Shown: piece by piece, positions 125-50,814 of the stretch
Layout: every line of letters starts with the position of its first letter
Numbering within the stretch: position 1 is the stretch's first letter
Source of the DNA: Lumbricus rubellus
Taxonomy: Eukaryota > Annelida > Clitellata > Crassiclitellata > Lumbricidae
DNA: 64,000 nt
Direction: 5' to 3'
NCBI GenBank assembly: GCA_945859605.1
Contig: OX243825.1
Coordinates: 4,310,291 to 4,374,290 of the forward strand
Translations under genes and position numbers: made by a program
The notes under the pieces: generated by a model
What the model saw: only the letters and a program-made list of their open reading frames with translations
Databases searched by the model: none
What the model was told of the DNA's origin: nothing

Positions 125-164
125 CTGTAAGACTAAGGGAGATGACGATAACGAGAAGTTCCAT
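125..164 (-). CDS. Signal-peptide exon of a fourth ITAM-Ig receptor gene, rest off the left edge
   Basis: ATG at 164-162 begins a short exon encoding [13 protein letters not shown] plus one base. This is identical in sequence to exon 1 of gene C (50775-50814) and close to exon 1 of genes A and B. It is hydrophobic, as expected for a signal peptide, and ends in phase 1 before GCAAGT, a GC-type donor. The remaining exons would lie left of base 1, because the gene reads leftward. Flanking DNA up to the GA array is also duplicated upstream of gene C, so this copy and gene C look like the most recent pair. Only one exon is visible, so whether the copy is intact cannot be judged. Confidence 0.65.
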
Positions 165-48100: not shown

Positions 48101-50814
48101 GATGTGTATATATATCATCAAGAGCCTGCAGATCTAAACACTAGGGGTCAAACTGCTACAGATTGATCTGCACGCGCTTCTGAAAAAAGGCTGAGATTCT
48201 GTTGAGTCTAATGTCGCTAGGTGCTATACATGTAACTTATCCCCGAAAGATGGATGGACAGACCACAGATTGGTGGATACGCCAAGTCACTTTGACCACC
48301 AGATGGGCGAAATCTGTGACTATAGTGACTCAGAAACAGAGCCTCCCTGAGATGTGAAGGTGCGTAATCCACTGAAAAGCTGTACACAAGCATCTAGATC
48401 TCAAATCCGATCTACTCTAGTATAGGTAAGTGTAACGTCAGACTAGGCTATAGTCTCAGTTCCCTGCTGTTTCCTTTTTTGTAAAATGCAAATTGCATAA
48501 TACTATTGCCACGAGCGAAATCTAGGCTGCCTCCTGCATAAACCTTAGTTTTATTCTAGCTTTTTAAAATACAGCGCAAGTGAATGTACTTCACGATCAT
48601 AATCCACTAGAAAGATGATCATCTGCTGACTACTGATTGTTTACCGGACAAAGTTATAGTCGCATTCTTCAACCAAATCTCGCAAACGGTGATGGAAATA
48701 AATTTGCTCGAACATTGTTACTGACCATCTGTTGAAAATAAAGGGAAAGGAATTTTGCTTACGAGATTCTAACATTATGAATAAAAACTTACGGAAAATT
48801 GTGATGACCGGTGTTCCACAAGAGGCTGCGGGGATTCGGTTTGTAGCCAAGCCTTCCAGCGGTCTCCAATCATAATCCGCAGTTTCATATGCAAACGACG
48901 CTTCACAAATGAATGATGGAACCTCAGGTGCAGAAGCCACAACAGAGTAAGATCGACTGATAGTGTTCCCAATTTTCACAGCAGCAGGAGCATCTGTCAC
49001 TCCCTTCCAGTTCATCGATGCATTATTCGTTCCAATGTATGTCACCTCACATTTTAATTGCACTACATCTCCTTCAACTGCGTCACCCAGCGACACATTT
49101 AACGAACATTTAGGTTGAGTCTCTGCAATCAAAAATTAAATAATTACGCTGGAGGCTGGAGCGCCTCTGAGTAGTTTTTTACTTGAAGGGGCGCTATATA
49201 AATGTCCGAATGAATGAATACATGCATGCACACATCTTTTATGTGCAAACATGTATGCGCCTACATGTATGCGACTACATACGTATTTGCATGCATACAT
49301 CACGCACGCACAGTTATGCACTCATAGTTTGTTTGTTTGTATGTGCACTTGTTATGCACGGTAGCACCCATTCAAGTTCCATACTTAGACGCTCTCCCGA
49401 CTACAGAGCGGACACTGCATCGGAATTTCACGCCGAAGTGCTGAGGAATTGCGAGAGATGGACTTGCCCAAGGTCCTTACGCGGCTGATTGAGGTGGATT
49501 AGAACCTGCAACCCTTCGGCTGCATGGCAACGAACATACCCACTACACCACCGTGAGTTAATACAATACGTACACTATTTACCTGTAAAAACATTCAGAC
49601 AAACGTGAATGCATGGGTATAGCCTAATAGGCTAATAATAATTATGTAGACAGCACGCATGAAAAAACAAGCCGACATTGATGCTTAATCCTATATAATG
49701 CATCAGCTTAGCCTACATCTGAAAGTTAATCACGGCACTAAGGCTCAACAGACAGTAATCTTTACCGTCACTGTCTAAAAAATGAAGAACTATTTCCACA
49801 GACTTTTAAATAACAAATTACTTACCCAGTACAATGAGATGAGCAGTTTTTGTAAATTGACTCGATGACATAATAGCTGAACAAATGAATCGTCCGGCGT
49901 CTGCAAGTTGAACGTTTCTAATAACTAAATCACATCCAGATGAATTGTCGACACTGTATCGAGCTTTATCAGTGACACTGTTGTTCAGCATTGTTCTTGG
50001 TCCTTTGAAAACAGTCACTGGACTTGCACCACGGACATATTTCTGCCAGTCAGTTCCGTTGCAGTTTCTAGATGGAGATGAACATTTCAAGATAACATTT
50101 GAACCAACCACGCTCAATGTGTTCTCAGGTCCTTCCAATTGACTTTCCTGTGCACCTAAAATTAAGCAAAATGTCCAGATAGCCTATTGAGTGGTTGTGA
50201 ATATTATGACAGAGCGTGAAAACATCGAAAGTTTATAATGTATGTGAGCCTATTATCGACAGTATAATTTTTATCGATAAAAAAGAAAATGATCTGCAGA
50301 ATTTCGAGTGGCAGAAATTTACCACAGTGCATTTGCTGACGATATGCAGCATCATTGTCGTAAAACCAAATTTGTAAGGGTCTGCTCTATAGCTAAGAAC
50401 ATAGGCCCTACATGTAAGCTTAATATAGACTATACACGAGTGCTTTACTAATCGCGAGTATGATACTAATCTAATTTACAGTAACTCCCATCGGTAACCG
50501 TGTTTGGCTACACCTGTTACACCTGATTCCTGTTAAACGAATAGGCCTACATAGAATTATATTATTTATATATAAATAGATATATGTAAGGTGTCTTCAC
50601 GGAAGTGCTGTTCATCAACATTAATAAATTATTTGAGCCTGTCACATGTAGGCCTATCCATTAAACAAAATATTGTCACTCTGCATTTTTAAAGACTATC
50701 AAAACTTAAAACAGAATATAAATATAGGCCCCATGAGTAACAAAATGAGCGATTATGGTGTAGGATTTACTTGCCTGTAAGACTAAGGGAGATGACGATA
50801 ACGAGAAGTTCCAT
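45030..50814 (-). CDS. Gene C: Ig-domain transmembrane receptor with four Ig domains and one ITAM
   Basis: Eight exons join in frame to about 519 residues: 50775-50814 (signal peptide [13 protein letters not shown]), 49826-50155 (V-like Ig), 48793-49122 (second Ig-like), 47802-48071 and 47059-47328 (two C2/I-like Ig, 270 bases each), 46459-46584 (transmembrane, [20 protein letters not shown]), 45794-45873 (linker [13 protein letters not shown]), 45030-45143 ([23 protein letters not shown], then KKKSMP and TAG). No internal stop is seen, so this is the best candidate for a functional single-ITAM member. The transmembrane exon is short, with almost no stalk. Intron 1 has a GC donor. Expected role: activating cell-surface receptor signalling through Syk-like kinases (inference). 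Confidence 0.83.
45794..45873 (-). CDS. Gene C linker exon
   Basis: 26 codons plus two bases, phase 1 in and phase 0 out (donor GTAAGC). It shares QEMSPSS with gene A but lacks about five codons. Confidence 0.8.
46068..46330 (-). mobile_element. LINE C-terminal fragment
   Basis: Reads [20 protein letters not shown], then [19 protein letters not shown] and [12 protein letters not shown]. This is the common end of endonuclease-reverse transcriptase LINEs. It sits between the linker and transmembrane exons of gene C. Confidence 0.75.
46459..46584 (-). CDS. Gene C transmembrane exon
   Basis: 42 codons, phase 1 on both sides. [20 protein letters not shown], then [15 protein letters not shown], parallel to gene B. 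Confidence 0.8.
47059..47328 (-). CDS. Gene C second C2/I-like Ig exon
   Basis: 90 codons, phase 1 on both sides. [16 protein letters not shown] and [14 protein letters not shown]. The product of duplication of the neighbouring 47802-48071 exon, or the reverse. Confidence 0.85.
47802..48071 (-). CDS. Gene C first C2/I-like Ig exon
   Basis: 90 codons, phase 1 on both sides. [16 protein letters not shown] and [14 protein letters not shown]. The F-strand position reads H-R-C where others have Y-R-C. Confidence 0.85.
48793..49122 (-). CDS. Gene C second Ig-like exon
   Basis: 110 codons, phase 1 on both sides. [37 protein letters not shown] and [12 protein letters not shown], matching gene B. 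Confidence 0.82.
49335..49557 (-). mobile_element. tRNA-derived SINE copy 5
   Basis: Body with CATCGGAATTTCACGCCGAAG and CTTGCCCAAGGTCCTTACGC; head ends in CACTACACCACCGTGAG. Located in intron 2 of gene C. A second tail fragment lies at 49148-49210. Confidence 0.85.
49826..50155 (-). CDS. Gene C V-like Ig exon
   Basis: 110 codons, phase 1 on both sides. [39 protein letters not shown]. Donor GTAAGTAA. Confidence 0.87.

Follow-up and report, generated by a model that had tools for sequence, protein, structure and literature searches.

Tandem genes predicted to encode single-chain immunoglobulin receptors with built-in activation motifs in the annelid Lumbricus rubellus

Do recognition and activation sit in one immunoglobulin (Ig) chain in this annelid? 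The question is raised by a 64,000-base window of the Lumbricus rubellus genome (assembly GCA_945859605.1, contig OX243825.1, positions 4,310,291 to 4,374,290; G+C content of 40.7% by base counts), in which a sequence-only reading had proposed a cluster of at least four Ig receptors that each carry an immunoreceptor tyrosine-based activation motif (ITAM). We found three complete genes on the minus strand and the start of a fourth (Table 1). Judging from their sequences, they are probably tandemly arrayed members of one family that encodes single-chain activating receptors of the Syk type in immune cells. That they encode single-chain V/I-type Ig receptors with canonical ITAMs is supported by the gene models, by matches to the Pfam V-set family and by all five ITAM exons.

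Gene models were built from a self-comparison of the window and inspection of the sequence. Gene 1 (50814-45030) has 8 exons encoding 519 amino acids, gene 2 (24775-14312) has 7 exons encoding 444, and gene 3 (11934-2481) has 9 exons encoding 516, with no internal stop codon in any of the predicted chains. Each gene runs through the same exon order of signal, V-set Ig domain (Ig1), second Ig-like domain (Ig2), one or two C2/I-type Ig domains (Ig3, Ig4), transmembrane (TM) segment, tail, and ITAM. Phases are compatible at all 21 introns, with phase 1 at the ends of the signal, Ig and TM exons, a change from phase 1 to phase 0 across the tail exon, and phase 0 at the end of a spliced ITAM exon. 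The four signal exons and the three complete exon chains with matching phases are thus as first read. Because ITAM exons begin and end in phase 0 wherever they are spliced, an extra copy leaves the reading frame intact; gene 3 has three such exons. Genes 1, 2 and 3 differ in the number of Ig domains (4, 3 and 3) and of ITAMs (1, 1 and 3), which supports the claim of a family variable in both respects; an outside relative described below, P0002, has two Ig domains.

Seventeen of the 21 introns have GT donors and four have GC donors, the latter being the signal-exon introns of genes 1, 2 and 3 and the Ig1 intron of gene 3. Since the lone fourth signal exon is followed by the same GC site, GC-AG splicing of the first intron seems characteristic of the family. 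The first 14 residues of this exon are identical to those of gene 1, and its position suggests that the tandem array continues to the left beyond the window. Of the "at least four" receptors, then, three stand as complete genes and the fourth is represented by a single signal exon. Over approximately 860 bases that include the signal exons of the fourth gene and gene 1 and their upstream flanks (7-859 and 50652-51517), the two regions are 87.0% identical, suggesting a fairly recent duplication; the closest match between exons, that of Ig1 in genes 1 and 2, is similar (86.5% identity). Three bases before the start codons of genes 2 and 3 (24775 and 11934), the sequence TTCTCAG resembles a splice acceptor and looks like the mark of an intron in the 5′ untranslated region or of spliced-leader addition.

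Six-frame translation of the window revealed five minus-strand occurrences of the pattern Y-x-x-L-x8-Y-x-x-L (45122-45075, 14404-14357, 3036-2989, 2810-2763 and 2573-2526). With an acidic residue required at position −3, there were six matches, namely the five ITAM exons and an unrelated site inside intron 1 of gene 3 (11378-11331), whereas 200 sequences simulated from a first-order Markov model had 0.06 on average and never more than 2. All five exons read E-x-x-Y-x-x-L-x8-Y-x-x-L, so the motif attributed to each tail is confirmed at a frequency far above chance. The E, Y, L, Y and L residues are invariant among the five exons (16 columns are invariant overall), and silent changes are present at three of the four Y/L codons. 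The predicted tails are 80, 85 and 151 amino acids long, each with its own ITAM. The ITAM tyrosines are the only two cytoplasmic tyrosines of gene 1; genes 2 and 3 each have one further, membrane-near tyrosine, and all of their distal tyrosines lie within ITAMs. A profile of the ITAM exons gave one chance match in the PDB (E = 0.12). Tyrosines of this kind could also direct trafficking, as Yxx-phi is an endocytic sorting motif and every YxxL here matches it. Sorting signals, however, require neither pairs at a fixed distance nor an acidic residue at −3 nor three tandem copies, and it is highly improbable that the pairs are sorting rather than signalling motifs.

Several observations weigh against activating receptors as the product of these genes, and the first concerns the motif itself. 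Six of the 10 motif tyrosines also match the consensus of the immunoreceptor tyrosine-based inhibitory motif (ITIM), S/I/V/L/T-x-Y-x-x-L/I/V, which makes a dual role possible. The receptors would then be inhibitory or dual, with tyrosines that act as ITIMs and recruit SHP-type phosphatases or with the ITAM itself being inhibitory. Ig receptors that use ITIMs are described in Botryllus (FcoR) and lamprey (NICIP) (PMC12065747, PMC5071834). Nevertheless, exactly 8 residues separate the YxxL pair in all five exons. This spacing falls within the 6 to 8 residues of ITAMs, as opposed to the 17 between the pair of ITIMs given for lamprey NICIP (PMC5071834), and therefore favors an ITAM. Gene 2, moreover, has no ITIM-type tyrosine by the above consensus. 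We consider inhibitory or dual receptors unlikely.

The second set of observations concerns the exons. Their ends were placed by hand at frame-keeping AG/GT or AG/GC sites, so the phase agreement across introns is partly by construction. What does not depend on this placement is the agreement among the three diverged genes, in which corresponding exons end at homologous places in the same phase, with the shifted Ig3 acceptor of gene 2 as the sole departure. In that gene, an in-frame TAA follows the homologous Ig3 acceptor, and the exon is open only via an AG located 6 nucleotides downstream. In gene 3, the donor after the TM exon (GTTACT) is far from the consensus, and if it were unused, the frame would run to a stop without an ITAM. 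Either gene may be impaired or may make an ITAM-less form. More broadly, the array could be decaying, with some copies being pseudogenes or ITAM-less forms, and the 11.8-kb long terminal repeat (LTR) element between genes 2 and 1 fits such a history. Conversely, all three frames are open across 444 to 519 codons, and the ratio of nonsynonymous to synonymous substitution rates (dN/dS) is below 1 in all computed pairs, which makes a decaying array improbable. Pairwise dN/dS was 0.07 to 0.42 for the ITAM exons (10 pairs) and, with three pairs each, 0.39 to 0.68 for the tail, 0.24 to 0.57 for Ig1, 0.34 to 0.88 for Ig2 and 0.48 to 0.80 for Ig3. For the TM exon, dS was saturated in two of three pairs (2.76 and infinite), which are uninformative and were left unused; the third pair gave 0.65.

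In a protein search outside the window with gene 1 alone as the query, the sole match (P0001) reads as an unrelated, bacterial-looking Ig-like protein and was rejected. When the three aligned proteins served as the query and the 7,998 candidates sharing the most words were scored, two relatives emerged, P0002 and P0003. P0002 is a protein of 256 amino acids from a 985-base contig, in which one open frame comprises signal, Ig1, Ig2 and TM segments without Ig3. Aligned with gene 1 over 247 columns, it shows 47% identity, and its TM segment resembles those of genes 1 and 2. Two Ig_3 stretches in P0002 total 39.2 bits (cut-off, 30), with its second domain alone scoring 18.4. As the introns after signal and Ig exons in the window measure 473 to 2,285 nucleotides, the contig is too short for three introns of this size, which indicates a transcript or a processed copy. 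For the family, P0002 therefore bears out the signal-Ig1 and Ig1-Ig2 junctions as well as an Ig2-TM junction. It may, on the other side, be a processed genomic copy, and its sequence ends after the TM segment with no ITAM joined to it. P0003 contains a single domain of the Ig3 type, which shares 65% identity with Ig4 and 61% with the Ig3 region of gene 1 and is flanked by apparently unspliced DNA.

Beyond the usual cysteine pair, Ig1 has two further cysteines that are invariant in all three copies and in P0002. Against the PDB, the Ig1 profile matched adhesion Ig domains, with contactin-1 as the best (2.4 × 10−7, summed over weak stretches), and gave weak matches to antibody and T-cell receptor V domains. 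Single copies of Ig3 and Ig4 all fell below the Pfam cut-offs, and a profile of the four copies matched Robo1 at 5.1 × 10−15. Ig2 is Ig-like, but each copy scored below the Pfam cut-off, no PDB sequence matched it, and its profile showed no significant similarity to the Ig1 and Ig3 profiles (E = 0.11 and 0.65). Structure prediction was of low confidence (pLDDT of 54 for Ig2 and 50 for Ig1), and a fold search with the low-confidence Ig2 model gave no match at E ≤ 0.001.

A rearranging, V(D)J-type receptor was considered and rejected: no recombination-signal-like sites were found at ≤3 mismatches (mean of 0.6 in 30 simulated sequences), and the J-type motif F/W-G-x-G was absent from genes 2 and 3 and present twice in gene 1, both times within the TM segment. 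Nor do the genes match an antigen-receptor complex with separate adaptor chains, which has a charged TM residue and no signalling motif of its own: charged residues were absent from all three TM segments, as delimited by hand, and each tail has its own ITAM. The uncharged TM segment together with an ITAM in the same chain suggests that a DAP12/CD3-type adaptor chain would not be needed. The TM exon of gene 3 (5317-5487) is only 21 to 22% identical to those of genes 1 and 2, with the other exons aligning well, and looks like a swapped or fast-changing exon.

The Ig exons differ in how well they are conserved. Amino acid identity among the three genes was 76 to 80% for Ig1, 59 to 69% for Ig2 and 56 to 64% for Ig3. 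No other Ig exon is thus as well conserved as Ig1, the V domain. This argues against diversification of the recognition repertoire, and the idea that the family diversifies recognition finds no support among these copies. The comparison of P0002 with gene 1 shows the opposite trend, with 46% identity in Ig1 and 52% in Ig2.

If these genes do encode activating receptors, an extracellular ligand would cluster the receptor via its Ig domains, and a Src-family kinase would then phosphorylate both ITAM tyrosines. A Syk-type kinase with tandem Src homology 2 domains would dock on the phosphotyrosine pair and trigger phagocytosis, aggregation or other effector responses in hemocyte-like cells; signalling via Syk is predicted here from the motif. 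Exon gain between copies would adjust the length of the ectodomain, through duplication of Ig exons, and the strength of the signal, through duplication of ITAM exons. Three close paralogs that differ in the number of ITAMs per chain offer a natural series for relating ITAM dose to activation.

Table 1. Predicted exons of the receptor genes and of a neighbouring gene in the window
Feature	Position	Strand	Evidence or remark
Fourth gene, signal exon (rest off left end of window)	125..164	-	GC site; 7-859 87% identical to 50652-51517
Gene 1, signal exon, GC donor	50775..50814	-	
Gene 1, Ig1, V-set	49826..50155	-	Pfam V-set 3.8e-09, 37.2 bits, cut-off 26
Gene 1, Ig2, four-cysteine Ig-like	48793..49122	-	Pfam Ig_2 14.5 and 16.2 bits, cut-off 27
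Gene 1, Ig3, C2/I-type	47802..48071	-	Pfam Ig_3 5.7e-04, below cut-off
Gene 1, Ig4, duplicate of Ig3 (80.6% DNA identity)	47059..47328	-	Pfam scan and self-comparison
Gene 1, TM exon, TM without charged residue	46459..46584	-	
Gene 1, tail exon, phase 1 to 0, no tyrosine	45794..45873	-	
Gene 1, ITAM exon with stop	45030..45143	-	
Gene 2, signal exon, GC donor	24736..24775	-	
Gene 2, Ig1, V-set	22163..22492	-	Pfam V-set 1.8e-07, 31.7 bits, cut-off 26
Gene 2, Ig2	20243..20569	-	No Pfam match on its own
Gene 2, Ig3, acceptor shifted 6 nt downstream	17917..18180	-	Pfam Ig_3 2.3e-06, 28.4 bits, cut-off 30
Gene 2, TM exon	16160..16324	-	
Gene 2, tail exon	15650..15744	-	
Gene 2, ITAM exon with stop	14312..14425	-	
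Gene 3, signal exon, GC donor	11895..11934	-	
Gene 3, Ig1, V-set, GC donor	9286..9609	-	Pfam V-set 25.5 bits, just under cut-off 26
Gene 3, Ig2	8156..8488	-	Weak Pfam Ig_2, 15.4 bits, cut-off 27
Gene 3, Ig3	7092..7361	-	Pfam Ig_3 1.5e-06, 29 bits, cut-off 30
Gene 3, TM exon, cysteine-rich end, donor GTTACT	5317..5487	-	
Gene 3, tail exon	4457..4551	-	
Gene 3, ITAM exon a	2956..3057	-	
Gene 3, ITAM exon b	2730..2831	-	
Gene 3, ITAM exon c with stop	2481..2594	-	
Fibrinogen gene, N-terminal frame, signal-like and coiled-coil-looking	37920-38582	+	No Pfam match
Fibrinogen_C exon	40415-40702	+	Pfam 4.1e-18
Fibrinogen_C exon	41648-42034	+	Pfam 2.2e-21

For the surroundings of the receptor genes, the Pfam family scan covered 30 of the 147 listed open frames. 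Between genes 2 and 1, a fibrinogen-domain gene runs in the opposite direction (37920-42034, plus strand); we infer that its N-terminal frame and the two Fibrinogen_C exons belong to one gene. The LTR element mentioned above (25407-37190, plus strand) is young and of the gypsy type, with terminal repeats that are 98.7% identical and a TATG-type microsatellite inside. A reverse transcriptase fragment at 62384-63337 (minus strand; Pfam RVT_1) is, in our reading, of the RTE type. Among the matches listed for it (120 of 2,701), the closest are 96% and 91% identical, and those from named organisms, Lamellibrachia, lizards, cattle and a sea cucumber among them, share no more than 49% identity. A short interspersed repeat resembling a tRNA-derived element has copies at 6689-6929, 14958-15172, 16603-16818, 32495-32735 and 49327-49555. 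ARAGORN found no tRNA in the window, and Rfam at the gathering threshold found nothing.

The nature of the ligand is a separate matter. The receptors might recognize self or kin cells in allorecognition or adhesion rather than microbes, as do Hydractinia Alr and Botryllus FcoR, a tentative proposal about the ligand that is compatible with signalling through ITAMs. It is in line with the conservation of the V-set exon across the three copies and with the Ig3 profile, whose nearest matches are adhesion molecules, Robo and contactins among them. The broad architecture and multigene arrangement also recall FcoR of Botryllus schlosseri, described as a large family (53 loci) of type I receptors of 520 to 610 amino acids with a V-type Ig domain first, a sushi domain, two C2-type Ig domains, a TM segment and a tail with tyrosine motifs (PMC12065747). 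By that description, FcoR tails carry ITIM, hemITAM or core motifs, whereas here there are full ITAMs (one or three) in which six of the 10 tyrosines also match the ITIM consensus, and a sushi-bearing FcoR was rejected since no sushi profile matched the Ig2 exons; the full ITAMs and the lack of a sushi match count against the proposal. In two of three haplotype regions, FcoR is reported to be encoded beside a fester-family gene (PMC12065747). Such a neighbor was not seen here, a weak point given the scope of the Pfam scan.

How does this locus compare with known systems? The hagfish NICIR, whose name denotes ITAM-containing Ig receptors, resembles it, by description only, as a polymorphic multigene family with variable domains in leukocytes, and differs in being of a vertebrate. 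Hydractinia Alr, also compared by description only, comprises V-set/I-set receptors with 41 members in one complex, and candidate allorecognition genes of Hydractinia are reported to carry ITAM and ITIM (PMC11999971, PMC12065747). A hemocyte glycoprotein of the ascidian Halocynthia roretzi, a membrane protein likened to ours by its two ITAMs, is described as acting in phagocytosis and aggregation (PMC5465252). In the oyster Crassostrea gigas, CgIgIT2 combines five Ig domains, a TM segment and a classic ITAM in one chain and signals via ERK (PMC11999971). CgIgIT2 and the Halocynthia glycoprotein set a functional precedent for activating receptors of this sort. Built-in ITAMs are therefore not new in invertebrates, and the suggestion that this is a little-described receptor system finds no support as regards the kind, as CgIgIT2, the Halocynthia glycoprotein and the Hydractinia candidates are already in print. 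Among the literature matches listed, there was no tandem family whose members have one or three ITAM exons, which is not proof of novelty. It is conceivable, if still doubtful, that the genes form a lineage-specific family that is not orthologous to Alr, FcoR, CgIgIT2 or the Halocynthia protein and lies within an immune gene complex that includes a fibrinogen-domain lectin. Duplication of ITAM exons would then tune activation through the number of ITAMs (one to three), in the manner of CD3-zeta, except that the ITAMs would lie on the recognition chain itself, and duplication of Ig exons would tune reach. As single-chain activating receptors, these genes would add to the Ig chains outside vertebrate antigen receptors that combine recognition with activation. 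By description, they share with CgIgIT2 an Ig ectodomain, a TM segment and a classic ITAM in one chain, and differ from it in having four, three and three Ig domains instead of five, with one, one and three ITAMs.

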